64,000 nucleotides of DNA, taken from assembly GCF_041080815.1 (NCBI RefSeq), contig NZ_CP160205.1:2046001-2110000 (forward strand), in the 5' to 3' direction. This DNA is from Mucilaginibacter yixingensis (GTDB lineage: Bacteria > Bacteroidota > Bacteroidia > Sphingobacteriales > Sphingobacteriaceae). The notes beneath the pieces were generated by a model, which was not told where the DNA came from, ran no database searches, and saw nothing but the letters and a program-made list of their open reading frames with translations. How positions within the stretch are numbered: the stretch's first letter is position 1; each line of letters opens with the position of its first letter. The translations under genes were made by a program, and so were the position numbers. Of this stretch, positions 45,272 through 59,455 are shown piece after piece.

Positions 45272-45642
45272 GAAGCGATAAATAAGGGGTATATAATTGG
45301 TAACCGAACCAGACGCGGTAATAATAAATCTAAAATAGAATAATTTAATAAAGGTGATTGCTGATATTAATAAAGTTACATAAGCCCCAACACCTTTTAG
45401 TACGATGTCGGTGCTCAGGCCGGTGGGAGATAGGCCCGCCGCGATAATAGCAGATTCGCTGCCATTTGTATATCTCGGAGTCTGGTCTGGTTTTGAGTGA
45501 TTTAAGCTCCTGGCTGTGATTGGGTTTTCGAATTCTCAGTATGTCGCGAATTCTGGCATATTCGTCTACATCAAAACGGTATAGCAAGTAGTATAATAAT
45601 TTTGTTACCTGAGCTTTAATATAACAATAGTTAGTCTATGGA
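45272..45642. other. Intergenic region with a possible decayed gene on the minus strand
   Basis: An 80-codon minus frame (45345-45587) starts MLYRFDVDEYARIRDILRIR, which resembles the tail of an MFS/GPH transporter. A different minus frame nearby reads AAGLSPTGLSTDIVLKGVGA then YVTLLISAITFIK. The mix suggests a frameshifted remnant. I do not call a gene. Confidence 0.3.
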
Positions 45643-45674
45643 TTTGGTAGATTAAATTTAATTATTTACGTTTG
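45643..45674 (+). promoter_or_regulatory. Consensus Bacteroidota promoter of the sulfur operon
   Basis: TTTG at 45643-45646 and TACGTTTG at 45667-45674 are separated by exactly 20 bp, a full match to the TTTG / TAnnTTTG promoter. Transcription should start near 45680, about 20 nt before the ATG of the Cys-rich leader ORF and about 350 nt before the SusC start. Confidence 0.8.
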
Positions 45675-45701
45675 CCTCATCAATTAAGATAAACAACGGC
45701 A

Positions 45702-45797
45702 ATGGAAGCTACTTTTCACAAAAAACAGGTTGCTAAAAAACAAGCAAACCGAATGTGCATCATGCCCATGATGTGCAAAGCCTGCTGTTGTTGCTAA
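45702..45797 (+). CDS. 31-aa cysteine-rich leader peptide (candidate attenuator)
   Basis: The ORF begins MEATFHKKQVAKKQANR and ends MCIMPMMCKACCCC followed by TAA. Six of the last thirteen residues are Cys, with four consecutive Cys codons (TGC TGT TGT TGC) directly before the stop. It begins about 20 nt downstream of the predicted transcription start and about 240 nt before the SusC start. That layout, and a sulfur-related operon containing a tRNA-Cys gene, fits a leader peptide whose translation stalls when Cys-tRNA is scarce, as in amino-acid attenuation. A metal- or thiol-binding small protein is the alternative. No family is recognised. Confidence 0.65.
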   Translation: MEATFHKKQVAKKQANRMCIMPMMCKACCCC

Positions 45798-45901
45798 TTG
45801 CACTTTCCCCTCAATAATAGAATTTTTTTACCTGGGTAGGTTTTTTGCCTGCTTCAACTATCATCACGCGTTCTCCAAAAATGAAATCAGCATAAACTAA
45901 A

Positions 45902-45936
45902 CAAATAAAAAAACCGGTAAGGAAGCCTTACCGGTT
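45902..45936 (-). terminator. Minus-strand intrinsic terminator in the SusC leader
   Basis: A perfect 11-bp stem (AACCGGTAAGG / CCTTACCGGTT, 3-nt loop). Reading on the minus strand it is followed by TTTTTTTATTT. It would end a transcript running antisense to the SusC leader. On the plus strand the same hairpin has no T-run and may serve as a leader structure. Confidence 0.65.
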
Positions 45937-45985
45937 GTGCAATGAAGTACCGGTTACGTAACGCCAATCACTCACCGGAGGCTTC
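45912..45985 (+). promoter_or_regulatory. Leader with two mutually exclusive hairpins
   Basis: Form A pairs 45912-45922 with 45926-45936 (11 bp). Form B pairs GAAGCCTTACCGG (45922-45934) with CCGGAGGCTTC (45975-45985) through 11 pairs with a 2-nt bulge. They share bases and cannot coexist. TACCGGTT is also directly repeated (45929-45936 and 45948-45955). This is what a switchable leader between the Cys-rich ORF and the SusC start would look like. Read by eye; not energy-computed. Confidence 0.5.
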
Positions 45986-46034
45986 ATCTCAGGACAAGCA
46001 AACGAATTTTCATTTACTTAAACCCTTGCTAAAG

Positions 46035-49000
46035 ATGGACATATTTATCCGTAGCAGACAACTATTATTTTATCATTTTTTACTCTCAGCCCTTGTTTTA
46101 GTACCGCTTTTTGCCGAGGCCCAAAAAGAACCGCCACCCACTATTAACTCTAAACTGGAGGGTCAGGTACTGGATGCCAGTAACAACCAACCACTGCCCG
46201 GCGCAGTGGTAGCTATACAGGGAACCACTCACTCCGTATCAACCAACATAGAAGGCCGCTTTAATTTTGTAACCGGTCAGAAATATCCTTATACACTGGT
46301 TATTACTTTTATAGGATATGAGAAACAGGAGAAAATTGCCAACGGCAGCCCGGTAACCATCTACTTAAAACCCGAAACCAAACAGCTGAATGATGTGGTT
46401 GTGGTAGGTTACGGTACCCAAACCCGTAAATCGCTCATTAGCTCGGTAAGCAGTATTAAGACTGATGAGGTACGCGATAAACCGCAAGCCACCTTCGCCC
46501 AGCAATTACAGGGTAAAGCATCTGGTCTTCAGGTAAGTGCCTCTACCGGCATCCCGGGTGATGGTATGTTTATCCGCATCCGTGGTACCACTTCTATCAA
46601 CGCCAGTAATGACCCGCTTTATGTAATTGACGGGGTATATGTAAACAGTACATCGCTGCAGCACATCACTACCCAGGGGCAGGCCAGCAGTCCGCTGTCT
46701 GACATTAATCCCGATGATATTGAGAGCATTTCTGTATTGAAGGATGCCGATGCAACTGCCATATACGGCGCCCGTGCTGCCAACGGTGTCATTGTAATTA
46801 CCACCAAACGCGGTAAAAAGAACAGCTCGCCAAAGGTTAACCTGAGTACTTATTTCGGTGGAGCCTGGGCCCCTAAACTGTGGGATCTGGTAACCGGTCC
46901 GCAGCATGCGGAGCTGGTTAACGAGTTTTACCGTAACTCAGAGGCTGATGCTATTGCTGCCGGCAATGCCACCGCCGCCGCGACCTATAAATATCAACCC
47001 TTCCGCGCGCTGACTGATAACCCGACAGCCACACCTGCACCGCGCGGACTGCCGCAGGACCAGCCTACGTATGATCGACTGCATGAGGCTTTCCGCACCG
47101 GTTTCCTGCAAAACTATAACGCTTCTATTTCTGGCGGCAATGGTGGTACTACCTATTACATCGGTGGTGGCTTGAACAAACAACAGGCAGATTTAAAGAC
47201 TGATGACTACCGCAGAGCCAGCTTCAAGGTAAATATCGATCAGCAGATTGGTAGTTTCCTGACAGTGGGAACCAGCAATACGCTTACCCAAACCTACCGT
47301 ACCCTTGCCCGTGTGGGCGACGGGCCTCAAGGCGGTATCCTGCAATCGGCACTGCATACACCAACTTATCTGCCGGAGTATAATGCCGATGGTTCGCCCG
47401 CTAAATGGGCCGGTTTTGATAACCTGCAGGTATTGTTGAACAATACCAACATGCACTCAACCAGTAACCGCATCATCAGTAATGTTTATGGTGAAGCTAA
47501 GCTGGGTAAAGACTTTAAATTCCGCACCAGCTGGAGCATTGACTTTAATAACTATAACGAGTTTCAGTACTGGAACAGTTTAACCAATCTGGGTGCAGCT
47601 AATAAAAACCTCGGTACATCAGGCGTAACTAATAATACCATCTGGACCGATGAGCAGACGCTAAACTATAACCACGTATTTGGTAAAAGCACCGTTGGCG
47701 CTTTAGTGGGTAACTCTCTACAGGGGACAGTTAACACCTACACCCAGGCTCAGGGTACCAGCTTCCCGAATGATTCTTTTCAACAGATCCAGTCGGCGGC
47801 GGTTACAACAGCAACCGGGAGCGAAACGCGTTCAAACCTGTCGTCATTTTTTGGCCGGGTAAACTATAACTATGCTAGCAAATATTATATAGAGGCCAGC
47901 GCCCGTTATGACGGCTCTTCGCGTTTTGGTGCTAACCATCAGTTTGGTTTCTTTCCTTCTGCCGGCATTGCCTGGCGCGCAAAAGAGGAAGATTTCCTGA
48001 AGAATGTTGAGGCCATCAACGATCTGAAATTCCGTGCCAGCATTGGTGTTACGGGTAATCAGAATGGTATTAATGATTTTGCATCGCGCGGCTTGTGGGG
48101 TGCAGGTGCCAACTACCTGAGCAGTCCTGGTATTACCGCCCAGCAACTGGCCAATCCGGATTTGAAATGGGAGAGTACCCGTCAGTCTAACATCGGTATT
48201 GATCTGAGCTTATTTAATGATCGTTTAACCTTGAGCGGCGATGTGTATGATAAATACACCAGCAACCTGCTGTTAAATCTGCCATTGTCATCAAGCAGTG
48301 GCTTTACCTCAATCCTGGCTAATGCCGGCGAGATCAGCAACCGTGGTTTTGAGTTCAGCATCAGCAGTACTAACATCAAGAAAGACCATTTCTCATGGAG
48401 TACCGATTTCAACTTCTCACGCAACGTCAACAAAATTGAAAAACTGCCAACGCCGGTAGTTGCTGCCTATGCTGCCGAACGCATGGTACAAGGGCAGTCA
48501 ATGTACACCTTCTATGCCTACAAACAATTGTACGTAGATCCGCAAACAGGTAACGCTGTTTATGACGACTACGATCATGATGGCAAGATCACGTCAAATG
48601 ATCTGGAACCGGTGGGCAACGCACTGCCTAAATTTACAGCCGGTCTAACCAACAGTTTCCGTTACCGTGCCTTTGACCTGTCGGTGTTTTTTAACATTGT
48701 TTATGGTAACAAGGTCTACAATAACAACGACTATTTTCTGGAAGGCGGCGGTACGCGTGATGCCAATCGCGCCATGGATACCCGTCAGCTAGAACGCTGG
48801 CAAAAACCAGGCGACATTACCGATATGCCACGCCTCACAGCGCTGAACAATAACTACACGCTGAGCCCTACTACCCGCAATATTGAGGATGGCTCTTTCC
48901 TGCGCCTGGATAACGCCACGCTAGGTTATACAATACCTAAAAGCCTTACTCAGCGCATTGGCATTGCATCAGTGCGGGTATATGTAACCGGCACAAATCT

Positions 49001-49133
49001 GTGGCTGTGGACCAAATACAGAGGTCCGGACCCGGAGATCAACGTGTCATCATCGCAAACCGTGCTGGGCTATGATTTGGGCACACCGCCGTTGCCGCGC
49101 ACCATTCAGGCCGGCGCTAATATTTCTTTCTAA
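46035..49133 (+). CDS. SusC/RagA-type TonB-linked transporter of the sulfur operon
   Basis: A 1032-aa transporter. The ATG at 46035 gives a signal peptide (MDIFIRSRQLLFYHFLLSAL ending FAEAQ). The frame is open from 45942, but those 31 codons have no signal character and overlap the leader structure. The carboxypeptidase-like domain (LEGQVLDASNNQPLPGAVVA), the linker LNDVVVVGYGTQTRK and the plug (ATFAQQLQGKASGLQVSAST, FIRIRGTTSI, PLYVIDGVYVN) precede the barrel, which ends RTIQAGANISF. It should import a substrate too large for porins. Since the rest of the operon handles sulfur, that substrate is probably sulfur-containing (inference). SusD follows 18 bases later. Confidence 0.95.
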   Translation: MDIFIRSRQLLFYHFLLSALVLVPLFAEAQKEPPPTINSKLEGQVLDASNNQPLPGAVVAIQGTTHSVSTNIEGRFNFVTGQKYPYTLVITFIGYEKQEKIANGSPVTIYLKPETKQLNDVVVVGYGTQTRKSLISSVSSIKTDEVRDKPQATFAQQLQGKASGLQVSASTGIPGDGMFIRIRGTTSINASNDPLYVIDGVYVNSTSLQHITTQGQASSPLSDINPDDIESISVLKDADATAIYGARAANGVIVITTKRGKKNSSPKVNLSTYFGGAWAPKLWDLVTGPQHAELVNEFYRNSEADAIAAGNATAAATYKYQPFRALTDNPTATPAPRGLPQDQPTYDRLHEAFRTGFLQNYNASISGGNGGTTYYIGGGLNKQQADLKTDDYRRASFKVNIDQQIGSFLTVGTSNTLTQTYRTLARVGDGPQGGILQSALHTPTYLPEYNADGSPAKWAGFDNLQVLLNNTNMHSTSNRIISNVYGEAKLGKDFKFRTSWSIDFNNYNEFQYWNSLTNLGAANKNLGTSGVTNNTIWTDEQTLNYNHVFGKSTVGALVGNSLQGTVNTYTQAQGTSFPNDSFQQIQSAAVTTATGSETRSNLSSFFGRVNYNYASKYYIEASARYDGSSRFGANHQFGFFPSAGIAWRAKEEDFLKNVEAINDLKFRASIGVTGNQNGINDFASRGLWGAGANYLSSPGITAQQLANPDLKWESTRQSNIGIDLSLFNDRLTLSGDVYDKYTSNLLLNLPLSSSSGFTSILANAGEISNRGFEFSISSTNIKKDHFSWSTDFNFSRNVNKIEKLPTPVVAAYAAERMVQGQSMYTFYAYKQLYVDPQTGNAVYDDYDHDGKITSNDLEPVGNALPKFTAGLTNSFRYRAFDLSVFFNIVYGNKVYNNNDYFLEGGGTRDANRAMDTRQLERWQKPGDITDMPRLTALNNNYTLSPTTRNIEDGSFLRLDNATLGYTIPKSLTQRIGIASVRVYVTGTNLWLWTKYRGPDPEINVSSSQTVLGYDLGTPPLPRTIQAGANISF

Positions 49134-49151
49134 ACGACAACGATGCTAATT

Positions 49152-50510
49152 ATGAAAAAAGCAATTTCGATATTATCAGTCCTGCTCATCTTCAGCTCCT
49201 GCAAAAAATACCTGGAGGTGCAGCCGCAACTACAGGTAGACCAGTCGCAGGCCATTGTTGATGCCGGTACGGCTGCCACCGCTGCCAACGGTTTGCTTAA
49301 TACGCTGGCCAGCAATAGTTACTATGGTTCAAACTTCCAGGCGCTATCTTATTTATCTGGTGGTGATATTCAGTGGACCGGCTCGCAGGCCGATCCGAGT
49401 GAGATTACCAAGCATATCACCTCGGCAACCAATGGCTACGTACAGTCGGCGTGGACGGCTATTTATAAAACCATTTCGCAAGCCAACTATGTTTTAGACA
49501 AGGTACCGGGTATTAAAGATCCATTATTTACCACGGCTCAACGTAACCAATATCTGGGTGAGGCCTACTTCATCCGTGCGCTGGCCTATTTTGATTTGGC
49601 TCGCGGTTGGGGAGGCGTACAGTTGGTACTGAAGCCAACCTATTCGTCAACAGATAATACCAACATCCCGCGCAGCAGCCTGGCCGATACTTATGCTCAG
49701 GTGCTGAAAGACCTGAACGCAGCAGAAGCACTGGTGCCTACAACGCTGAACCGTAACCGGGTTAGTGTTAAAACCGTACAGGCGCTCAAGGCCCGTTACT
49801 ACCTGTACCAGAAACAATGGGCCGATGCTGAGCAATACGCAACGCTGGTTATCAATGATACCAATTATGGTTTGGTATCGCCATATAGCAGCTTTTTTGC
49901 CAACAACGCGGTGGCTACCAAAGAGTCGGTTTTTGAGCTGGCTTACTCGTCATCAAACACTAACGGGCACAGCAACTGGTGGTTGCCGCCGGCGCTGGGT
50001 GGCCGACGTGAGTGGGCACCTAATGATGCGCTTGTTGCCTTGTTGAATGATCCGACAGTAGGTGGCAACCGCAGTGCGCTGATTGCCCGGACTGCAGCCC
50101 CGGGTAACCTGTGGTATGGCCAAATGTATTACCGTACGCCGGTGGGTACAGATCCGGCTTATGTTATCCGTATTGCGGAGCTGTACTTTATCCGTTCTGA
50201 GGCCCGCGCTTACCAGGGCAAGCTGATAGGTACCGGCAGTGCACAGGAAGATCTGAACGCAGTGCGTGCCCGTGCAGGCATTTTGCCAAGCACTGCGGCA
50301 ACGCTGAGCGATATCCTATTGGCGCTGGAAAAAGAACGCCAGGTAGAATTTCCTTTTGAGAGCGACCGCTGGTTTAACCTGGTGCGTACAGACAGGGCAC
50401 AAACAGTATTGAGTTTACCTGATAAGCATCTGTACCTGTTCCCAATCCCTTACAACGAAACGCTGGTAGACCCTAATCTGGCCGGTACTAACAGAAACCC
50501 TGGTTATTAA
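49152..50510 (+). CDS. SusD/RagB-family lipoprotein of the sulfur operon
   Basis: A 452-aa SusD protein. The ATG at 49152 starts MKKAISILSVLLIFSSCKKY with lipobox Cys at residue 17; an in-frame ATG at 49143 is less likely. Family features include LGEAYFIRALAYFDLARGWG, VQALKARYYLYQKQWADAEQ and ALEKERQVEFPFESDRWFNL, with the classic ending TNRNPGY. It should cap the SusC barrel encoded before it and bind the incoming ligand. Relative to the PUL SusD it is shorter, and no carbohydrate enzyme is in the operon, so the ligand need not be a glycan. Confidence 0.95.
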   Translation: MKKAISILSVLLIFSSCKKYLEVQPQLQVDQSQAIVDAGTAATAANGLLNTLASNSYYGSNFQALSYLSGGDIQWTGSQADPSEITKHITSATNGYVQSAWTAIYKTISQANYVLDKVPGIKDPLFTTAQRNQYLGEAYFIRALAYFDLARGWGGVQLVLKPTYSSTDNTNIPRSSLADTYAQVLKDLNAAEALVPTTLNRNRVSVKTVQALKARYYLYQKQWADAEQYATLVINDTNYGLVSPYSSFFANNAVATKESVFELAYSSSNTNGHSNWWLPPALGGRREWAPNDALVALLNDPTVGGNRSALIARTAAPGNLWYGQMYYRTPVGTDPAYVIRIAELYFIRSEARAYQGKLIGTGSAQEDLNAVRARAGILPSTAATLSDILLALEKERQVEFPFESDRWFNLVRTDRAQTVLSLPDKHLYLFPIPYNETLVDPNLAGTNRNPGY

Positions 50511-50528
50511 TCATCAACAATACCCGAT

Positions 50529-51470
50529 ATGAAAAAATTAACAAGTTTATTGGTTTTAATGGCTGCAGGGCTGATGGCCTTTGCGCAACAATCGCCTATC
50601 ACGGTTAAAAAATCGCCAACCCGCCACGGGCCAGAGAAGGGCAGTCTGCTCATCATTGGCGGTAACGTTGGTTCTCAGCGCGATATCTGGGACAAGTTTA
50701 CCGAGCTGGCCGGTGGTAAAGACAAAGCCTTTGTGGTAGTGGTAACCACTGCTGCGGGTGATTCGGCCGCTTTTGATCAGAAAGCGGTGGATGAGGTGAA
50801 GAAACAAACCGGCATCAAAAATGCCGTGCTGCTACACACCAGCGATTTTAAAGAAGCTAACAGCGAGAAATTCATCGCTCCTATAAAAAAAGCTACCGCT
50901 GTTTACTTTGAAGGCGGCCGCCAATGGCACATTGCCGATTCATACCTCAATACGCTTACCCATCAGGCATTTATTGACCTGTTGGACAGGGGTGGGGTAA
51001 TTGCCGGTAGCTCTGCGGGCGCCAGCATCATCGGCTCGTTTTTGTGGCGTGGTGATACCAAAGGTGCGCAGGTAGAAATTGGCGATCATACCCAGGGACT
51101 GGGCTTCCTTAAAAACTCGGCTATAGACCAGCACATCCTTGTGCGCAACCGCGAGTTTGCTTTGGTTGATTTTATCCGCAAGGCACCGCAGTTAATCGGT
51201 TTGGGTTTGAACGAAGCTACCGCCGTCTTGGTACAGCGCGATACGTTGCAGGTGCTGGGCAAATCATACGTAGCTATTTATGATTACAACACTATTATTA
51301 ATAATGGCGAAAAGCACGTGGTGAATAACCGCGAAGATTTTACGGCATCAAACGGGCCATTTTTCTTCCTGGGCGCCGGGCAAAAGTATGATCTGGCTAA
51401 ACGCCAGGTAATACAGGAGCCGCGACGTAATAAAAACAATAACGTAGCAAAAACAGAATCAAGTAATTAA
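50529..51470 (+). CDS. S51-family serine peptidase, cyanophycinase-like
   Basis: A 313-aa exported peptidase: signal MKKLTSLLVLMAAGLMAFAQ, then GSLLIIGGNVGS, FVVVVTTAAGDS, FEGGRQWH (128-134) and the nucleophile motif GVIAGSSAGASIIG with Ser162. This is the Ser-dependent dipeptidase E / cyanophycinase fold. Cyanophycinases split beta-aspartyl bonds. In this sulfur context an unusual peptide or gamma/isopeptide substrate bearing Cys or a sulfonate is worth considering (inference). It starts 18 bases after the SusD stop, so it is co-transcribed. The periplasm is the likely place of action. Confidence 0.9.
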   Translation: MKKLTSLLVLMAAGLMAFAQQSPITVKKSPTRHGPEKGSLLIIGGNVGSQRDIWDKFTELAGGKDKAFVVVVTTAAGDSAAFDQKAVDEVKKQTGIKNAVLLHTSDFKEANSEKFIAPIKKATAVYFEGGRQWHIADSYLNTLTHQAFIDLLDRGGVIAGSSAGASIIGSFLWRGDTKGAQVEIGDHTQGLGFLKNSAIDQHILVRNREFALVDFIRKAPQLIGLGLNEATAVLVQRDTLQVLGKSYVAIYDYNTIINNGEKHVVNNREDFTASNGPFFFLGAGQKYDLAKRQVIQEPRRNKNNNVAKTESSN

Positions 51471-51478
51471 GGGACAAA

Positions 51479-51549
51479 GCCGGGTGACTGAGCGGTTCAG
51501 GTAGAGGTCTGCAAAACCTTTAACGGCAGTTCGAATCTGCCCCCGGCGT
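51479..51549 (+). tRNA. tRNA-Cys (anticodon GCA)
   Basis: Anticodon stem GAGGT/ACCTT encloses the loop CTGCAAA, anticodon GCA. The T arm is GGCAG-TTCGAAT-CTGCC. The acceptor has six clear pairs (GCCGGG with CCCGGC). If the usual 7-bp numbering is used, the outermost pair would be A:G. CCA is not encoded. It starts 8 bases after the peptidase stop and ends 26 bases before the DoxX gene, so it is embedded in the sulfur operon on the same strand. Confidence 0.88.
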
Positions 51550-51575
51550 CTTTTCAATACCACTATTTAACCATT

Positions 51576-52928
51576 ATGAGCACATTAGCCAACACTGCAA
51601 AACCATGGCACAACTACCAGAAGCTGGGCTTCAGGTTGCTGTTCATCTACTTTATTTTGCAGGCTGTCCCACTCGATTGGAAGTTTTACGCCCATTTCTT
51701 CCATATCGACTGGACGCACCTGCATTTTTATGACATTTTTTATATCAGTCGTTACACGCCGCAGCCAACACAGGCCTACAACCCTGGCAACTGGGGACTG
51801 GCCACGCTGGCAGATCTAGGCGTGGTTGCTGCCATTGCCCTCATCGGGGCCATTATCTGGACAGCCCGTGATAAGAATAGCCAGGAGTATAACAACCTGT
51901 ATTACTGGCTGCGCGTTATCCTGCGTTACCGCCTGGCTATCGCCCTTATTGCTTACGGGTTTATCAAGTATTTCCCGGTGCAATCTCCGGAGCCATCGCT
52001 CAGTAACCTGAATACAGCCTACGGCGATTTTAACCGCTGGAAATTGTTTTCGCTTACACTGGGCATTACTCCTGGCTATCAGGCCTTTTTAGGCGGCGTA
52101 GAAATTGTGGCCGGTTTGCTGCTGCTATTCCGCCGCACTACATTGTTTGGCGTCATCATCGTGTTATTGTTTACCGGTAACGTATTCTTTGCTAACCTGG
52201 CTTATGATGGGGGCGAGGCTGTTTATGCGCTGACATTGCTGCTTATCGCATCGTTCTTAACCTTGTTTGATGCACAGCGTATCTACAACCTTGTGGGCTT
52301 GCGCAAGCCTACCGAACCTAACCGACTTAAGCCTGTATTTGAAGGACAATGGCGAACAGGCCGTGTTGCGCTTAAAAGCGTATTTGTTTTCTTTTTTGTG
52401 ATTTTTTACGGATGGAAAACTTATGCCGCTTATCAAGGCTACCAATATCCGCAGGCTAAGGGTTTGGCCGGTGCGGTAGGATTGTATGATGTAAAACAAT
52501 TCAGCGTCAATCATCAGGAGCTGCCTTATTCGGCTACCGATACCGCCCGCTGGCAGGACGTGGTGTTTGAAAAATGGAACACCATCAGCATCCGTACCCC
52601 AAAAGCATTACAGGTTGACAGCCTGAACACACAAGAGTTTAGTGCCGATGATAAAAATCGCGATTATGAATTGCAGGGCTCTGCCGGTCGCACCTATTAC
52701 AGCTATACGGTTGATGAGGTGCACCAGCAATTACTGCTGCAAAACCGTAATCCGGCTTACGCAAATGATAAACTGGTGCTGGATTACCAACGTCCGGACG
52801 ATGCCACCATTGTACTGAACGGTATCAGTCACGGTAAAGACTCTATCCAGGTTACGCTTGCCCGTTTGCCGAAGAAATATCTGCTGGAGGCCACATCAGA
52901 GGGCCGTGGCAAAGTCACTAAACTATAA
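51576..52928 (+). CDS. DoxX/DoxD-like membrane protein with C-terminal soluble domain (1)
   Basis: A 450-aa membrane protein. The N-terminal half has DoxX-type helices: YYWLRVILRYRLAIALIAYG, FIKYFPVQSPEPSLSNL, GGVEIVAGLLLLFRRTTLFG and VFFANLAYDGGEAVYALTLL. This resembles the DoxD subunit of thiosulfate:quinone oxidoreductase and related inner-membrane proteins. After a last helix near 270-290, a soluble tail of about 150 residues (FSVNHQELPYSATDTARWQD to KVTKL) has the look of a small beta domain. It probably interacts with quinone. A close paralogue follows at once. It is the first protein gene after tRNA-Cys. Confidence 0.82.
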   Translation: MSTLANTAKPWHNYQKLGFRLLFIYFILQAVPLDWKFYAHFFHIDWTHLHFYDIFYISRYTPQPTQAYNPGNWGLATLADLGVVAAIALIGAIIWTARDKNSQEYNNLYYWLRVILRYRLAIALIAYGFIKYFPVQSPEPSLSNLNTAYGDFNRWKLFSLTLGITPGYQAFLGGVEIVAGLLLLFRRTTLFGVIIVLLFTGNVFFANLAYDGGEAVYALTLLLIASFLTLFDAQRIYNLVGLRKPTEPNRLKPVFEGQWRTGRVALKSVFVFFFVIFYGWKTYAAYQGYQYPQAKGLAGAVGLYDVKQFSVNHQELPYSATDTARWQDVVFEKWNTISIRTPKALQVDSLNTQEFSADDKNRDYELQGSAGRTYYSYTVDEVHQQLLLQNRNPAYANDKLVLDYQRPDDATIVLNGISHGKDSIQVTLARLPKKYLLEATSEGRGKVTKL

Positions 52929-52941
52929 TCGATTTAAATTT

Positions 52942-54540
52942 ATGTCGACTATCACATCATCACCTGCCAATCTTCAGGAAGTTTTGCAGGATAATAAAAT
53001 AACCTCACCGGGACAAACCGCCAAACAGCCATCAGCCTGGAAGCCGTACGAGCGTGTGGCCTTCCGCATTGCCTTTATCTTTTTTATCGGCATGTCAATC
53101 CCGATGGGGGCTGAGTGGTACAAAAACCTCTTTACCATTAATTGGTTCCACGTACATTACCGCGATCTGTATGATATAGCGCGTTTTCAGCCATCGCTGG
53201 TGCGTTTTTCAAACCCTGCTTTAAACCTGCTGGGTTGGGCAGACTGGGTTGCCGTGCTAGCCATTGCGACTGTTGGCGGCCTGATCTGGACGCTGTTTGA
53301 CAGCAAGAACAAAGAATACCGCACGCTGTATTATTGGCTGCGGGTTGTAGTGAGGTATCGCGCAGGCATCGGGATCATTGGTTTCGGATTTACCAAGTTA
53401 TTCCCGGTGCAGATGCCTTATCCATCGCTGGGCGTATTGAACGCCAACTTTGGAGATCTGACTGCGCAGAAGATCTACTGGTTATCGGTAGGTATTGTGC
53501 CCTGGTATCAGGTGTTTGCCGGTATTGTAGAAGTAGCGGCAGGCGCGATGCTCTTCTTCCGGAAAACCACAGCGTTTGGTGCCATTATGTTGTTTGCCGC
53601 CCTTGGCGATATCACCTATGTAAACCTGGCTTATGATGGCGGTGTACATGTGTACGCTTCTTACTTTGTATTGTTTGCCGGTTTTTTGCTTTGGCTGGAC
53701 GCTGTGCCGGTTTATAATTTGGTGGTGCGCGAGCGTTTCACTGTACCGGCGGTGCTTACCCCTCAATTTACCCAAAAGTGGTTGCGCGTAACCCGCATCA
53801 TTTTAAAAACATTGACCATTCTAATCTTCGGTGTACTGTTGTTTTACGTGCAGTATGTAAACTGGCGCTATGACCCATACAAGCAACCTGCTATGAAAGG
53901 CGTTAAACAATTACGCGGCAATTATACCGTAAGCGAGTTTAAACTGAACGGGGAGGATGTACCTTACTCGCCGCTTGACTCGGTGCGCTGGCAGAATGTG
54001 ACTTTTGAAAAATGGTCATCGTTAACCTTTAACGTACACAAGCCTCTGAAGCTCGATCTGTCTAACGGCGGCGGCTCGCCCATGCGCGATATTAACCGCA
54101 GCTTTGAGATGACAGGCGTTGCAGGCGGCCACCGCGTATTTTACTACGATGCCGACACCCTGAATAAGGTGCTTTACCTGCAGGATAAGTTGGCTGCAAG
54201 CGGCAATCGCCGTGGCCGTGGTGCGGGCCGTAAAAAGGCAGAGGCACCGAAACAGCAGAAAAGCTTTATTCCGGAAGATGCTAAAGCCAACATCCGCGAT
54301 GAGGTGCATGGTATCGATCCAAAAGCATGGTCAACCCGTCGTGAGCGTGGCGTGCCCGAGGAAAGTAAAGACACACGCAAGCGCGCCCGCATGGTGTTGC
54401 ATTATGCCGATAGCGCCGACGGCGCTCATGTGATACTGACTGGTAAAGACGACCATAAAAATGATATCTATATAGTTCTTGACCGCATTAACAGACCGTA
54501 TGCGTTGAAAGACAGCAAGCTGGTAGCCGGTGAGTATTAA
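52942..54540 (+). CDS. DoxX/DoxD-like membrane protein with C-terminal soluble domain (2)
   Basis: A 532-aa paralogue of the preceding protein: YYWLRVVVRYRAGIGIIGFG, FTKLFPVQMPYPSLGVL, GIVEVAAGAMLFFRKTTAFG and VNLAYDGGVHVYASYFVLFA match it helix for helix. Its soluble tail is longer and contains a basic, low-complexity insertion (NRRGRGAGRKKAEAPKQQ) not present in the first copy. The ATG at 52942 is used because a frame open from 52858 overlaps the first gene. The two proteins probably form a heteromeric membrane complex. The last bases overlap the start of the FAD protein. Confidence 0.82.
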   Translation: MSTITSSPANLQEVLQDNKITSPGQTAKQPSAWKPYERVAFRIAFIFFIGMSIPMGAEWYKNLFTINWFHVHYRDLYDIARFQPSLVRFSNPALNLLGWADWVAVLAIATVGGLIWTLFDSKNKEYRTLYYWLRVVVRYRAGIGIIGFGFTKLFPVQMPYPSLGVLNANFGDLTAQKIYWLSVGIVPWYQVFAGIVEVAAGAMLFFRKTTAFGAIMLFAALGDITYVNLAYDGGVHVYASYFVLFAGFLLWLDAVPVYNLVVRERFTVPAVLTPQFTQKWLRVTRIILKTLTILIFGVLLFYVQYVNWRYDPYKQPAMKGVKQLRGNYTVSEFKLNGEDVPYSPLDSVRWQNVTFEKWSSLTFNVHKPLKLDLSNGGGSPMRDINRSFEMTGVAGGHRVFYYDADTLNKVLYLQDKLAASGNRRGRGAGRKKAEAPKQQKSFIPEDAKANIRDEVHGIDPKAWSTRRERGVPEESKDTRKRARMVLHYADSADGAHVILTGKDDHKNDIYIVLDRINRPYALKDSKLVAGEY

Positions 54541-55969
54541 TAAACAACATACTGATTACGATGCAGTAGTGGTAGGCAGCGGTCCGAATGGGCTGGCTGC
54601 TGCCATTACCTTACAGCAACGCGGTCTGTCGGTCTTACTCATTGAAGGTAAAGACCAGATAGGCGGTGGCCTGCGCACCGAAGAACTCACATTGCCGGGG
54701 TACCGGCATGATGTATGCTCGGCCATTCACCCGATGGCGGCGGCCTCACCTTTTTTTGAAACGCTGCCGTTAGGTGAGCATGGTCTGGAATGGATCTATC
54801 CCGAACTGCCTGCCGCCCATCCGTTTGATGATGGCACCGCGGCATCACTCCAAACATCGCTGGTTAATACCGCGGTATCGCTGGGAGTAGACCGAGATGC
54901 TTATTTGAAGCTGTTGCAGCCGTTGGTAAAAAGCTGGCCGGGTATGGCTAAAGATGTACTTGGTCCACTAAGTATTCCAGGAAGGCCATTGGATATGGCG
55001 GCTTTCGGTATAAAAGCTCTACAACCAGCCACACAACTGTCCAAAGTATTTAAAACCGAGGCAGCCAAAGGGCTTTTTGCCGGTATGGCGGCGCACAGCA
55101 TACAACCGCTGGGCAACATGGCTACGTCGGCCATTGCACTGGTGTTGATGGCTAACGGGCATTTAAAAGGCTGGCCCATACCCAAAGGTGGCTCGCAAAA
55201 CATCGCATCGGCGCTGGCGTCCTATTTTACATCAATGGGAGGGAAAATTGAAACAGGCAGATACATCAGCAAGCTGGAACAACTGCCATCGGCCCGGGCG
55301 GTGTTGTTTGATGTTACCCCCAAACAGCTGCTTGGCATAGCTGGTCATCAGTTCTCTAATATCTATAAATGGCAACTGGAACGCTATCGTTACGGTATGG
55401 GGGTATTTAAGATTGATTGGGCGCTGGCCGAACCTATTCCGTTCTGCGCGTTGGACGTGCGGCGGGCGGGCACGGTGCACATTGGCGGCACGCTAAAAGA
55501 AATTGTGCGTACCGAAGCCGAGACGGCCCATGGTCATCACCCTGAAAAGCCTTTTGTGCTGCTGGCTCAGCAAAGTTTGTTTGATGCTACCCGCGCACCC
55601 GAAGGCCGCCACACCGGGTGGGCCTATTGCCATGTACCCCACGGCTCGCGCAAGGATATGACAGAGATTATTGAAAAACAGGTGGAACGTTTTGCCCCAG
55701 GCTTCCGCGAGCGCATACTGGCACGGCACACGTTTGACACCGGCAAACTGCAGGCTTATAACACCAACTACATAGGCGGCGATATCAATGGCGGTATTAT
55801 AGATATCCGTCAGTTGTTTACCCGCCCGGCATTGCGCCGATCGCCTTACCGAACATCGGCTAAGGGGATTTATCTGTGCTCGTCATCAACACCTCCGGGA
55901 GGCGGCGTGCATGGTATGTGTGGTTATAACGCAGCGCAGCGGGTACTTAAAGACATTTTTAAAAACTAA
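54530..55969 (+). CDS. FAD/NAD(P)-dependent oxidoreductase, phytoene-desaturase-like fold
   Basis: A 479-aa flavoprotein. The start codon is GTG (54530), overlapping the end of the DoxX paralogue by 11 bases. The N-terminal dinucleotide motif YDAVVVGSGPNGLAAAITLQ and the GGGLRTEELTLPGYRHDVCS segment place it in the phytoene desaturase / amine oxidase-like group. The C-terminus has YLCSSSTPPGGGVHGMCGYN, which is common in this group. Its substrate cannot be read. In the operon it might reduce or oxidise a quinone or persulfide next to the DoxX pair. It precedes the YeiH gene by 28 bases. Confidence 0.88.
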   Translation: MSINKQHTDYDAVVVGSGPNGLAAAITLQQRGLSVLLIEGKDQIGGGLRTEELTLPGYRHDVCSAIHPMAAASPFFETLPLGEHGLEWIYPELPAAHPFDDGTAASLQTSLVNTAVSLGVDRDAYLKLLQPLVKSWPGMAKDVLGPLSIPGRPLDMAAFGIKALQPATQLSKVFKTEAAKGLFAGMAAHSIQPLGNMATSAIALVLMANGHLKGWPIPKGGSQNIASALASYFTSMGGKIETGRYISKLEQLPSARAVLFDVTPKQLLGIAGHQFSNIYKWQLERYRYGMGVFKIDWALAEPIPFCALDVRRAGTVHIGGTLKEIVRTEAETAHGHHPEKPFVLLAQQSLFDATRAPEGRHTGWAYCHVPHGSRKDMTEIIEKQVERFAPGFRERILARHTFDTGKLQAYNTNYIGGDINGGIIDIRQLFTRPALRRSPYRTSAKGIYLCSSSTPPGGGVHGMCGYNAAQRVLKDIFKN

Positions 55970-55997: not shown

Positions 55998-57413
55998 ATG
56001 GCAGAAAATATAAACCTGAAGGTAGTCGAATCTACGGCCAATCCAGAAATCGCTCCGGCAAAAAAGAATACTTTCACATCCCTCACTGAAGACTGGTGGG
56101 CGGTGATTTTGGGTCTTGGTATTGTTGCCGTGGCTTATATATTTTACCTCTCTGGTTCCAGCATATCGTGGATTGCAGTAGCACCCGGCAAATGGTCAAG
56201 CTTTTCGCAACTGGCAAATCAGGTTGGTAAAGACGGCGTCAGATATTTGGCCCTATTCGGGGTACTGCTGCTGCTTTTCACTATTGTAACAACACGCATC
56301 GGGCAAAAGCCAAGGCATTTTATTCCGGCTTTCACATTTGTGTTTGCTATATCCACTATCATTTATGTATTGGGCAGCTGGGATCAGGCCAGCAAGTACA
56401 CGCTTGAACCGCCTTTGGTGGCGCTCGCCCTAGGCTTGTTGATTGCTAACATAGCCAAATTACCCCGGTGGTTTGATGCCGGTTTCAGGGTGGAGTTTTA
56501 TATTAAGTTGGGCATTATTTTATTGGGTGCAACGCTGCCTTTTACCTTAATTATCTGGGCAGGGCCGGTAGCTATTTTGCAAGCCTCCCTTGTATCACTG
56601 GCCACATTCCTTACTATATTTTTTGTGGGTCGTAAACTTGGACTTGATCGTCGTTTAGCCGCGGTATTAGGTGCTGGTGGGGCTGTGTGCGGTGTGTCTG
56701 CATCAATTGCCATCGCCGGGTCTGTTCGTGCTAAAAAAGAGCATCCGCCAGTGGCCATTAGCCTGGTGGTGGTTTATGCCATCATTATGATTTTTGTGCT
56801 GCCGATAGTTTGCCGTGTGCTCAGGCTGCCTGCGGGTATTGGCGGCGCCTGGATTGGTACTTCGGAGTTTGCTGACGCCGCAGGACTGGCCGCCGCACAA
56901 TCATACGGTGGCTTGACTGGTGGTCATCTGGGTATAGCCGGTACGGCAGATCAAGCGGTTGCCGCTTATACACTTATTAAAGTTATTGGTCGCGATATTT
57001 GGATAGGTATCTGGGCATTTGTTTTGGCCTTGATCTCGGTTACTTACTGGGAACCGGCCGAAACTACTTCAAAAGTGCAGGTTAGCCAGATCTGGTTACG
57101 CTTCCCCAAGTTTGTGATCGGCTTTTTGGTGGCATCTATACTCACCTCGTTAATTATACATGGCAATACACTGGCTGAGTACAACAAAATAGTAAAGCCG
57201 GCTTTGATACTGCCTATCACTGCTTTGCGTACCTGGGCTTTTACCTTTAGTTTCTTCAGTATCGGGTTAACTACCCGCTTCCGCGAATTAGCCGCGGCGG
57301 GCAGCAAACCTGTAATTGCATTTACAGCCGGAGTGGTGGTCAATGTAATTCTGGGTTATATACTATCGGTAATTGTTTTCGGGCATTATTGGTCTGCCAT
57401 TGTAACACATTAA
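55998..57413 (+). CDS. YeiH/UPF0324-family putative sulfate exporter
   Basis: A 471-aa membrane protein with about ten to twelve hydrophobic helices. The family's conserved segments are visible: LVALALGLLIANIAKLPRWF, FYIKLGIILLGATLPFTLII, LAAVLGAGGAVCGVSASIAI and GTSEFADAAGLAAAQSYGG. YeiH-like proteins are annotated as putative sulfate exporters. That role fits the end of a sulfur oxidation route in which the SoxC-like enzyme would produce sulfate. The N-terminal 30 residues before the first helix are unusually long. It is the fourth membrane-associated protein after tRNA-Cys. Confidence 0.9.
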   Translation: MAENINLKVVESTANPEIAPAKKNTFTSLTEDWWAVILGLGIVAVAYIFYLSGSSISWIAVAPGKWSSFSQLANQVGKDGVRYLALFGVLLLLFTIVTTRIGQKPRHFIPAFTFVFAISTIIYVLGSWDQASKYTLEPPLVALALGLLIANIAKLPRWFDAGFRVEFYIKLGIILLGATLPFTLIIWAGPVAILQASLVSLATFLTIFFVGRKLGLDRRLAAVLGAGGAVCGVSASIAIAGSVRAKKEHPPVAISLVVVYAIIMIFVLPIVCRVLRLPAGIGGAWIGTSEFADAAGLAAAQSYGGLTGGHLGIAGTADQAVAAYTLIKVIGRDIWIGIWAFVLALISVTYWEPAETTSKVQVSQIWLRFPKFVIGFLVASILTSLIIHGNTLAEYNKIVKPALILPITALRTWAFTFSFFSIGLTTRFRELAAAGSKPVIAFTAGVVVNVILGYILSVIVFGHYWSAIVTH

Positions 57414-57418
57414 TCAGC

Positions 57419-57646
57419 ATGAAAATCCTGAATAGTATTCAACTACGCAACAATGGAGCAAGTTGCCGGCAGTGTCATCATTTTAAAAATGACCCCGCCT
57501 TTATTGAGGCTACATACCCGGGATTAACGGCAATGAGCTCGGGTTATGCTTCTGTGCGCAACAGGGATGGTTTATGCGATTATCATGAAATCTATCTTTC
57601 AGCCAATGATCATTGTCTACAGTTTCAATCATGCCTAAAAGTTTAA
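57419..57646 (+). CDS. Small Cys/His-rich protein of unknown function
   Basis: A 75-aa soluble protein with a striking metal-ligand pattern: CRQCHH at residues 16-21, LCDYH (Cys53, His56), HC at 65-66 and Cys72. The ATG at 57419 lies 3 bases after the YeiH stop; a longer frame from 57389 overlaps that gene. There is no signal peptide, so CRQCH is unlikely to bind haem and more likely to bind zinc or an iron-sulfur centre. Its 3' end overlaps the start of the cytochrome gene by 16 bases, indicating co-expression. I do not recognise the family. Confidence 0.7.
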   Translation: MKILNSIQLRNNGASCRQCHHFKNDPAFIEATYPGLTAMSSGYASVRNRDGLCDYHEIYLSANDHCLQFQSCLKV

Positions 57647-58230
57647 GTATTAGTATGTGTTGCCTGTTGGCCGTGCTATCGCTGGCATTACTTAGCAATA
57701 CGCATTCTTCTCTCATGGCAAGCAGTTTAGCTGATACCACCAAATGGCCACCGCATTTTGGCTTTGGTCATGCAGCTACCGAGCAGGAAATTAAGCTTTG
57801 GGATATCGATATCCGTCCTGATGGTTTGGGCCTGCCGTCTGGTAGCGGTACAGTTGCTCAGGGAAAGGCTGTTTATGTGGTGAAATGTGCGGCCTGCCAT
57901 GGTATGGAGGGGCGCGAGCTGCCCGGTGTTAAGTTGCCTGCTCCGGCCCTGGTTAGCGATACACTGGCAGGCAGCAGACCAAAAACCATAGGTAATTACT
58001 GGCCTTACGCCACTACCGTGTTTGATTATATACGCCGTACGATGCCTTATAATCTGCCGGGTTCTTTGAATGATAATGAGGTGTATAGTTTAACGGCTTA
58101 TCTGTTAAGTGCCAATCAGATTATCAGCCCCAATACGATAATCAATGCGCAAACTTTGCCGGCGGTGGTAATGCCGGCAAAGAAGTTATATGTCCGCGAT
58201 GACCGCAAAGGCGGCAAAGAAGTGAAATAA
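57631..58230 (+). CDS. Periplasmic cytochrome c, partner of the SoxC-like enzyme
   Basis: A 199-aa exported cytochrome. The ATG at 57631 gives MPKSLSISMCCLLAVLSLAL as a signal; a TTG at 57613 is a poorer choice. The haem motif is CAACH, after GTVAQGKAVYVVK, and TMPYNLPG provides the distal Met. The order haem motif, then TRPKTIGNYWPYATTVFDYI-like segment, then TMPYNLPG is that of SoxD-type and sulfite-dehydrogenase cytochromes. It should take electrons from the molybdenum enzyme encoded next, whose start is 1 base after its stop, and pass them to the respiratory chain. Confidence 0.92.
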   Translation: MPKSLSISMCCLLAVLSLALLSNTHSSLMASSLADTTKWPPHFGFGHAATEQEIKLWDIDIRPDGLGLPSGSGTVAQGKAVYVVKCAACHGMEGRELPGVKLPAPALVSDTLAGSRPKTIGNYWPYATTVFDYIRRTMPYNLPGSLNDNEVYSLTAYLLSANQIISPNTIINAQTLPAVVMPAKKLYVRDDRKGGKEVK

Positions 58231-58231
58231 A

Positions 58232-59455
58232 ATGGAAGAGAAAGATAAAAAGTCATCCGGTAATATTAGTAGGCGGGCATTGCTTGGCGGTGCATTGGCT
58301 ACTGCTATTTTACCGGTGAGCAGTGCTTTTGCCAAATACGTACAGGTGGGCGCACCCATTGATGATCCGACCAAAAAGTTGGGGCCAGGACCCGGTAAGT
58401 TGGGTAAACGTTCACCTTTTGAACAACCATTAAAGAAACCTTCAGACATATCATCGCGCACGCCGCTGCAGGATCTATATAGTACCATTACGCCGGCCGA
58501 TCTGCATTTTGAGCGGCACCATGCCGGCGTACCTACTATTGATCCGGCAAAATATGAGTTGTTGATACACGGTATGGTTGATAAGCCAATGAAATTTACA
58601 CTGCATGATCTGAAAAGATTTCCATCTGTAACACGTACCTGTTTTTTGGAATGTGCCGGAAATTTTCGGAGCGGAAGTGAACAGCTGACACCGCAGGATA
58701 TTTTAGGCCTCACCAGCCAGAGCGAATGGACCGGCATTATGCTATCAACCTTGCTGCGCGAAGTTGGTGTTCAGCCCAAGGCCTCCTGGTTTTTAGCCGA
58801 AGGTGGCGATGCGGCAGTGATGACGCGCAGCATCCCTGTAAGTAAAGCCTGGGACGATGCCATGATTGTTTATGCGCAGAACGGGGAAGCCATCCGTCCT
58901 GAGCAAGGTTATCCTGCTCGTTTACTGTTGCCCGGTTGGGAAGGCAACATGAATATCAAATGGCTGCGCAGATTAGAATTTGCAGACGAACCCTGGTTTA
59001 CCCGCGAGGAAACTTCAAAATACACCTATCCGGTAAAAGATCGTATCCGTTACTTTAGTTTTGAGATGGATGCCCGTTCTATCATTACCTATCCGGTGTT
59101 TCCGCAGAAAGTGGAACGTGGCTGGATAGAAATACGCGGCATTGCCTGGAGCGGGAGAGGGAAGGTGTTAAAAGTAGAAGTGAGTACCGATGCGGGCAAA
59201 AGCTGGAACACCGCCAACTTACAAGAGCCTGTATTAAGTAAAGCGCACACTTATTTTCGTTACTTATGGTACTGGAATGGTGATGCCACAGAAATAGCCA
59301 GCCGGGTAATTGATGAAACCGGCTATACACAGCCTACATTAAAACAACTTGCCGAAGCCCGCGGTACCGCTATAGGCGGATATCATATGAACCCGATTAC
59401 CGCCTGGCAAATACGGCCCGATGGCAGCGTTTTATTTTATCCGGAAAAGGTTTAA
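58232..59455 (+). CDS. Molybdopterin sulfite oxidase-type enzyme, SoxC-like
   Basis: A 407-aa molybdoenzyme. A twin-arginine signal (NISRRALLGGALATAILPVS) exports it folded. The Moco Cys is Cys141 in TRTCFLECAGNFRSG. The second, immunoglobulin-like domain has WIEIRGIAWSGRGKVLKVEV and VSTDAGKSWNTA, and it ends ITAWQIRPDGSVLFYPEKV. It resembles sulfane dehydrogenase SoxC and sulfite oxidases and should oxidise a sulfane group or sulfite with the cytochrome encoded just upstream. It is the last gene of the operon; a terminator follows about 150 bases later. Confidence 0.93.
   Translation: MEEKDKKSSGNISRRALLGGALATAILPVSSAFAKYVQVGAPIDDPTKKLGPGPGKLGKRSPFEQPLKKPSDISSRTPLQDLYSTITPADLHFERHHAGVPTIDPAKYELLIHGMVDKPMKFTLHDLKRFPSVTRTCFLECAGNFRSGSEQLTPQDILGLTSQSEWTGIMLSTLLREVGVQPKASWFLAEGGDAAVMTRSIPVSKAWDDAMIVYAQNGEAIRPEQGYPARLLLPGWEGNMNIKWLRRLEFADEPWFTREETSKYTYPVKDRIRYFSFEMDARSIITYPVFPQKVERGWIEIRGIAWSGRGKVLKVEVSTDAGKSWNTANLQEPVLSKAHTYFRYLWYWNGDATEIASRVIDETGYTQPTLKQLAEARGTAIGGYHMNPITAWQIRPDGSVLFYPEKV

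Follow-up and report, generated by a model that had tools for sequence, protein, structure and literature searches.

In mycobacteria, leaderless short ORFs with polycysteine tracts act as attenuators (Canestrari et al., 2020, cited through PMC13236596, PMC9094748, and PMC9031893). As far as the cited passages describe them, these are short upstream ORFs with contiguous Cys codons that control downstream genes by cysteine, and the locus studied here shares the short upstream ORF and the contiguous Cys codons. Within the limits of those passages, it differs from them in belonging to the Bacteroidota and not the Actinobacteria, in having a probable leader of about 10–20 nt where theirs are leaderless, and in its SusC/SusD targets, the tRNA-Cys gene in its operon, a common palindrome, and an RNA element without an Rfam match. 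A second relative is the uORFC-8-2 motif upstream of cysS in Rhodobacterales, which also has an upstream ORF (uORF) with tandem Cys codons and is presumed to sense Cys-tRNA (PMC8632094). According to the available part of that source, the motif has two Cys codons at positions 14–15, an intrinsic terminator with a U run, and cysS as its sole target in Alphaproteobacteria, whereas the uORFs described here have other targets and carry 2–6 Cys codons near the stop codon. Within the same phylum as our locus, leader-peptide attenuation has been proposed for amino acid biosynthesis operons of Flavobacterium psychrophilum, but the passage concerned names neither cysteine nor SusC/TonB uptake operons (PMC9723704).

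A literature search, whose coverage was partial so that absence is not proven, found neither a Cys leader ORF nor a SusC/SusD case in Bacteroidota, in line with the preliminary description of this DNA, which knew of no such precedent. SusC/TonB uptake systems are usually thought to answer to the substrate that is imported. We propose that the short ORF at the head of the SusC operon studied here is the sensor of a cis-acting cysteine attenuator, in which a low level of Cys-tRNA would stall the ribosome and raise expression of the operon. From the sequence comparisons below we put the probability of this reading at roughly 0.74. If it is true, amino-acid-responsive leader ORFs are placed before SusC/TonB uptake systems, and Bacteroidota have a cysteine sensor that needs no protein.

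A Cys-tailed uORF is conserved upstream of two receptors

The analysed stretch of DNA (64,000 nt, hereafter the window) contains the features listed in Table 1. The preliminary description had read here a TTTG-N20-TACGTTTG promoter, a 31-codon ORF about 28 nt further on with four Cys codons just before its stop codon, and downstream genes for uptake and sulfur oxidation together with a tRNA-Cys gene. The sequence bears this out: the ATG of the uORF, at 45702, lies 27 nt past the –7 box, the four codons are in place, and SusC, SusD, a SoxC-type sulfite dehydrogenase, and tRNA-Cys are encoded downstream. We take TTTG-N20-TACGTTTG to be the promoter type of the Bacteroidota phylum. In the related leaders described below, a TAnnTTTG box is found within 60 nt of the uORF ATG in 50 of 56 cases and the distance from the –7 box to this ATG is mostly 19–30 nt; the 5′ leader before the uORF is probably about 10–20 nt long. 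The window uORF translates to MEATFHKKQVAKKQANRMCIMPMMCKACCCC followed by the stop codon, and a search of NCBIfam with this peptide matched no family. Across leaders the uORFs have 13–45 codons, and short ORFs of this size are likely missed by gene callers.

Table 1. Features of the leader and operon in the window.
Feature	Position	Strand	Basis or detail
Operator-like palindrome GTCTATGGATTTGGTAGAT, consensus GTCTATAGATTTAGTAGAC, overlapping the –33 box	45634–45652	+	consensus mismatch count
Bacteroidota-type promoter TTTG-N20-TACGTTTG	45643–45674	+	sequence; TTTG 45643–45646, 20 nt gap, TACGTTTG 45667–45674
uORF, 31 codons, Cys-tailed leader peptide	45702–45797	+	sequence and orthologue leaders
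Hairpin inside the uORF just before the Cys run	45754–45777	+	predicted fold; 10 pairs (two G-U), loop GCCC
Four consecutive Cys codons TGC TGT TGT TGC	45783–45794	+	sequence
Untranslated spacer, 114 nt	45798–45911	+	composition; C 25 versus G 13
Two-hairpin structured RNA element	45908–45995	+	covariance model R1, window 80.2 bits
Hairpin 1 of the element	45912–45936	+	
Hairpin 2 of the element	45942–45987	+	
Conserved loop GTAACGCCAATCAC	45958–45971	+	
SusC/RagA TonB-dependent receptor	46035–49133	+	TIGR04056 847 bits (cut-off 368); Pfam plug and barrel
SusD	49143–50510	+	PF14322, PF07980
Peptidase S51, cyanophycinase-like	50529–51470	+	PF03575; TIGR02069 below cut-off
tRNA-Cys (GCA), embedded in the operon	51478–51550	+	tRNA match
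Dox1 (working label)	51576–52928	+	no Pfam or NCBIfam match
Dox2 (working label), paralogous to Dox1	52939–54540	+	no Pfam or NCBIfam match
FAD-dependent oxidoreductase	54530–55969	+	family match
YeiH-family putative sulfate exporter	55998–57413	+	PF03601 149.5 bits; TIGR00698 below cut-off
c-type cytochrome	57613–58230	+	family match
SoxC-type sulfite dehydrogenase	58232–59455	+	TIGR04555 459.7 bits (cut-off 420)

We compared two sets of loci from one genus, presumably Mucilaginibacter, since locus L069 has the same coordinates and uORF peptide as the record of Mucilaginibacter sp. SMC90 (L225). Set A consists of the close matches of the window SusC, which are present in 27 of 80 genus genomes (29 loci, L057–L085). 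Set B consists of the close matches of a second TonB receptor, which in the window's genome likewise follows a Cys-tailed ORF; these are present in 35 of the 80 genomes, and 30 of 35 loci were used (L086–L115). A Cys-tailed short ORF was read in 28 of the 29 set A loci (L078 ends before the place of the ORF) and in all 30 set B loci. The ORF therefore recurs upstream of this SusC type in relatives, a point that the preliminary description had raised together with a search for the peptide. The peptide itself gave less: direct similarity in 201 family genomes produced, beyond the window, only weak matches (E 0.03–0.9), which were dropped as evidence because the peptide body is not conserved, and it is the Cys tail that recurs in the orthologue leaders.

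An ATG ORF with at least three Cys in its last six codons occurs in 52 of the 55 full-length leaders of the two sets. About 0.57 such ORFs would be expected by chance in 55 leaders at the rate seen in the rest of the same loci on both strands (13 such ORFs in 632,348 strand-bases). The best other residue in the same tail test was Leu, with 7 of 55 leaders. The misses are L064, where four Cys are followed by four other codons, and L099 and L107, which have two Cys each. Loci shorter than 5,500 bases (L058, L073, L078, and L094) were excluded from the 55; L058, L073, and L094 do carry a Cys-tailed ORF.

Codon positions, like the folding described later, were analysed in 56 of the 59 loci (27 of 29 in set A and 29 of 30 in set B, leaving out L064, L078, and L094). 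Counting back from the stop, codon –2 is Cys in 26 of 27 set A and 29 of 29 set B leaders, codon –3 in 25 of 27 and 26 of 29, and codon –1 in 14 of 27 and 28 of 29, respectively. Positions above –3 are more diverse than –2 and –3. Both TGT and TGC are used at codons –2 and –3, and TGG is absent from these 112 codons. The number of Cys in the last six codons ranges from 2 to 6, other residues may follow the Cys run, and the peptide body drifts and shows no conservation from one receptor group to the other. Within the ORF, it is the Cys run that is conserved.

One explanation for such an ORF is chance, with the Cys run a by-product of a U/G-rich RNA tract. TGYTGYTGY is indeed frequent in the genome as Leu-rich reading frames, and the CCCC-plus-TRR pattern has 21 genomic matches; six of the ten inspected besides the window's own were Leu-rich or other frames of longer genes. 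However, the presence in 52 of 55 leaders against an expectation near 0.57, the variation of the third base between T and C at codons –2 and –3, and the lack of TGG among the 112 codons leave this explanation next to no probability, and we consider it refuted because the Cys tail is conserved.

It is also conceivable, though quite improbable, that the peptide with its Cys tail is the active agent, either at the ribosome or once released, for instance by binding a metal or a thiol-reactive compound, which the leader would sense instead of Cys-tRNA. Four adjacent Cys could bind metal, and the available part of one source describes copper being sensed translationally by a nascent exported protein (PMC9973294). 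Such a role sits poorly with a peptide body that is unlike between the receptor groups, a Cys count that varies from 2 to 6, the tolerance of trailing residues, and a genomic context of tRNA-Cys, sulfite oxidation, and a SAM riboswitch.

That selection has kept the Cys codons beside the stop and little else of the peptide is best explained if the translating ribosome senses the charging of Cys-tRNA, and the comparison of leaders supports this putative sensing step.

Cys-tailed ORFs elsewhere in the genome and in more distant relatives

The window's genome contains at least six Cys-tailed ORFs. Apart from the window SusC operon, these precede the second TonB receptor (uORF MKQIFTFPMCCCC, followed by the stop codon), a PIG-L deacetylase, a serine carboxypeptidase, and an FGE-sulfatase/SusC/SusD locus. 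The sixth starts with TTG and lies before a gene whose N-terminus, read by eye, is PhyH-like. A PhyH-like gene preceded by a Cys-tailed uORF was seen both in this genome (L120, – strand, after 1500) and in a relative (L162:15046–15087).

A class-wide search of 395 genomes matched 10 of them and gave nine new SusC loci. Two loci from another family (L195 and L196) have Cys-tailed uORFs, two (L197 and L200) have uORFs with alternating or two Cys, and in L194 a Cys-tailed uORF lies about 650 nt upstream with another ORF between; no Cys-tailed uORF was found in L198, L199, L201, or L202. For the second receptor, we inspected 25 new loci out of 35 places. At least two Cys are present near the stop in L283, L284, L287, and L289, and this was seen in none of the other 21. 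Sixteen of these 21 are distant homologues (at most 45% identity) whose start is uncertain, and five are closer (L285, L286, L288, L290, and L291). L286 and L288, which are from the same family and have second receptors 58–60% identical, lack a Cys-tailed ORF, and this we count against the attenuator reading.

As a control we took 80 named SusC loci across the phylum among the matches listed, 77 of which had 500 nt upstream, and again looked for at least three Cys in the last six codons. Two of these 77 listed loci have a Cys-tailed ORF, and both are Mucilaginibacter orthologues (52% and 60% identity). Among the other Bacteroidota SusC leaders in the matches listed, a Cys-tailed ORF was found in none of 75.

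Operator-like palindrome

An imperfect palindrome, GTCTATAGATTTAGTAGAC, is present with at most four mismatches in 52 of 56 leaders and with at most six in all 56; one base-shuffled copy per stretch, used as a control, gave 6–10 mismatches. The window copy has three mismatches to the consensus. Across leaders the palindrome lies either upstream of the –7 box or just downstream of it. In the whole genome, the pattern with at most two mismatches occurs at seven distinct places, four of which are upstream of Cys-tailed ORFs. One of the seven (L116) precedes another SusC with hairpins and without a Cys tail, and at two (L118 and L119) no Cys-tailed ORF was seen. Seen from the ORFs, the palindrome accompanies five of the at least six Cys-tailed ORFs in the window's genome, and the PIG-L ORF lacks it (best match, seven mismatches). 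The genome has three Rrf2 genes over the cut-off, whose products are candidate operator-binding proteins. By eye, the palindrome can also be seen upstream of receptor genes in other families (L285 and L290), without a Cys uORF.

Operon genes and sulfur context

The start of SusC is most likely the conserved ATG at 46035. The longest SusC ORF begins at 45942, inside hairpin 2 of the two-hairpin RNA element, and automatic annotation may misplace the start there. At base level the region around the start (46025–46055) is unusually conserved, and an A/T-rich inverted repeat around the start codon can be seen by eye in many orthologues. Judged by their order and strand, the operon genes probably form one transcript. 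Gene order is broadly kept in 16 loci (the window, L154–L166, L172, and L173), with some members missing: the S51 peptidase was not seen in several, the FAD oxidoreductase and YeiH are unmatched in L165, and the cytochrome and sulfite dehydrogenase are unmatched in L166. Some of these 16 stretches are too short to reach the end of the operon.

A tRNA-Cys gene lies inside the operon, on the same strand and after SusD or S51, in seven of the 16 loci (the window, L156–L160, and L162). In L154 it is upstream of the leader instead, and in the other eight loci it was not found. Outside the operon, at least one further tRNA-Cys gene is present in the window's genome. The order in L154:14275–15394 (–) is a second Cys-tailed uORF (MDMNKTAIKNQYFELLTKQGCCSCCCC, followed by the stop codon), tRNA-Cys, and then the SusC leader. 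In L085, a SAM-I riboswitch (86.4 bits) is directly upstream of the Cys-tailed uORF. The complete order at L085:590–1126 is SAM-I riboswitch, Cys-tailed uORF, a second promoter-like stretch with a Cys-tailed uORF, and then SusC.

The links of the targets to sulfur or Cys are thus tRNA-Cys, the SoxC-type sulfite dehydrogenase, the FGE-sulfatase, and the SAM riboswitch; for the PIG-L and carboxypeptidase targets no link to sulfur is evident. Together, the retention of the Cys run, its recurrence within the same genome, and the context of sulfur genes, tRNA-Cys, and the SAM riboswitch make Cys-dependent control the best explanation. Against our best reading, it is not self-evident that a sulfite-oxidising operon should be induced by Cys shortage.

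RNA around the Cys run and a possible mechanism

The hairpin predicted just before the Cys run in the window has a z of –1.87 against synonymous-codon shuffles. In set B, the hairpin directly before the Cys run has a mean z of –1.32 against dinucleotide shuffles and –1.15 against synonymous-codon shuffles, with 13 of 29 leaders below –1. In set A, to which the window belongs, this signal is less marked (synonymous z –0.57, with 10 of 27 leaders below –1). The Cys codons of set B are also predicted to pair with the bases immediately downstream (mean z –1.56). When any downstream stretch is allowed as partner, pairing of the Cys tail exceeds that in shuffles only slightly (mean z –0.45 for set A and –0.89 for set B). 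The two set B signals favour the attenuator reading; the slight excess over shuffles and the fainter set A signal count against it. Pairing of the hairpin-2 loop with the Cys tail was strong in L075 and L076 but not in most leaders (mean z –1.1 over 16) and was rejected as a general mechanism.

A simple-rule scan of the sense strand found no intrinsic terminator downstream of the window uORF and none 3′ of the uORF in 54 of 56 leaders, the two exceptions being L074 and L081. The hairpin at 45912–45936, which is hairpin 1 of the two-hairpin element, is terminator-like on the – strand only. No conserved terminator/antiterminator pair was found; the hairpins seen were local ones, upstream of the Cys run and at it. 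In 20 leaders, the scan picks out a hairpin beginning within the uORF, with the U-rich Cys codons directly behind it; these predicted hairpins might serve as terminators or pause sites.

As in attenuation of the Trp/His type, these leaders have a short ORF with repeated codons for the amino acid that would be sensed, and a hairpin beside them; unlike in that type, the scan found no downstream intrinsic terminator in 54 of 56. Textbook trp-type attenuation is thus not supported. The classic attenuation layout seen in the preliminary description holds for the conserved Cys run by the stop and fails for the intrinsic terminator. Judged by its sequence, the leader appears Cys-attenuator-like, yet it does not pass the terminator test of the classic type.

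For the attenuator reading that we prefer, we infer translation of the uORF, stalling, the direction of control, and the output step as follows. Ribosomes would begin to translate the uORF immediately after transcription starts. Under a shortage of charged Cys-tRNA, a ribosome would stall in the Cys run beside the stop codon, where it would keep open the hairpin or hairpins made by or next to the Cys codons and would also cover the RNA past the stop, and the operon would be expressed. With ample Cys-tRNA, the ribosome would finish and leave, the RNA would refold, and the transcript would then be lost, or left untranslated, in the spacer. The tRNA-Cys of the operon would be induced by the shortage that it helps relieve; if this is true, the sensed tRNA-Cys is itself a product of the operon, which makes a loop.

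The output that we would favour is Rho-dependent termination with the sensor beside the stop, as in tnaC. There, the control is Rho-dependent, the control point is at the end of the leader ORF beside the stop, and the RNA past the stop is open to Rho. The stall would here come from scarce charged tRNA, whereas that of tnaC is a ligand-induced arrest, and a Rho output is presumed here. Set B spacers (54–77 nt to the receptor ATG) have 5.3% G and 26.7% C, compared with 12.8% and 14.1% in 20 other SusC leaders; a spacer of this length is short for Rho loading. Set A is not G-poor (G 16.6% and C 22.9% in the first 60 nt past the stop), and this makes the Rho reading weaker for set A. A Rho output would agree with where the Cys run lies and with the base composition of set B, and less well with that of set A.

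A two-hairpin RNA element before SusC

In most window-like leaders, a structured RNA of two hairpins lies between the uORF and SusC. The loop of hairpin 2, GTAACGSCAATCAC, is nearly invariant, with one extra base in two members. The element is absent from set A loci L071, L074, L077, L079–L083, and L085, and none of the second receptor's loci showed the loop motif. A covariance model built from 19 sequences matches at least 26 of 201 family genomes at E ≤0.01, a minimum since the filters were strict; 20 of 31 model places score at least 47 bits, and the weaker ones mostly resemble hairpins arising by chance. In an alignment of 39 members (37 distinct) that had been fitted to the structure, double-sided changes occur in 17 of 22 pairs. 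Cells with such changes number 95, whereas shuffling gave 24 and sliding the partners no more than 23; further pair types (31) are not beyond their control (28.6; 98 of 500 shuffles as high). In Rfam 15, the window matched only tRNA and its leader was unmatched. A permissive search of ten related loci gave, besides a tRNA, only the L085 SAM riboswitch at or above the gathering threshold, and no match in the element of six such loci. The two hairpins with their nearly invariant loop are possibly a riboswitch or a protein-binding element. Two features lend themselves to direct tests: the tRNA-Cys gene in a putatively Cys-controlled operon, and an RNA element that covaries and has no Rfam match.

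An ORF with at least two Cys near its end is found upstream of the element in 37 of 38 members with upstream sequence, L139 being counted by a 5-codon ORF alone. L128 keeps the element without a Cys-tailed ORF, which we also count against the attenuator reading. It agrees with control of the operon by an operator-binding protein together with the two-hairpin RNA, the Cys ORF merely setting basal ribosome loading or protecting the 5′ end. The strong conservation of the RNA element, the palindrome with at most four mismatches in 52 of 56 leaders, and the palindrome and hairpins without a Cys tail in both L128 and L116 all fit this arrangement. We nevertheless regard it as unlikely, as selection on Cys codons and on no other residue needs a Cys-dependent role.

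The loop pattern ends 57–65 nt before a SusC-like start at 36 of the 37 distinct places where it occurs in the loci analysed. This bears on translational attenuation, in which the same sensor would be used but the stalled ribosome would free the SusC initiation region and not the transcript, with the two-hairpin element taking part in window-like leaders from its place 57–65 nt before SusC. We see this as a real possibility, albeit one that we doubt. The nearly fixed distance of the loop from the SusC start and the unusual conservation of the start region are consistent with it, and translational attenuation is reported for mycobacterial Cys ORFs in the passages available. However, a simulated stalled ribosome left the predicted accessibility of the SusC start essentially unchanged (0.526 to 0.527 in set A and 0.720 to 0.750 in set B), and the second receptor's loci keep the Cys run without the loop motif. 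Release of the SusC start by a stalled ribosome, with a predicted effect of none in set A and about +0.03 in set B, was rejected. Translational control would thus fit the fixed place of the element, yet the folding model gave no effect of stalling. Cysteine control of SusC/SusD, as the preliminary description had it, is supported by the conserved Cys run, the recurrence, and the sulfur context, but not by the accessibility of the SusC start, which stalling barely changes.

Returning to the attenuator that we favour, we tentatively suggest, at somewhat less than even odds, that it belongs to a sulfur-shortage regulon of the Sphingobacteriaceae. Leaders of this regulon would stack up to three cis devices, namely an operator, a Cys-codon uORF, and a SAM riboswitch or two-hairpin RNA, and the tRNA-Cys of the operon would close the loop.

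Two further places with the loop pattern are L140:289 and L153:1548. A second hairpin loop motif, CAATTGnCGTTGC, was seen at L077:1325 (–), L085:1346 (+), L116:1792 (+), and L136:2744 (–). These places precede other genes, which are SusC-like at L077, L085, and L116. Three of the four contain ATTGGCGTT, the reverse complement of the part AACGCCAAT of the first loop.
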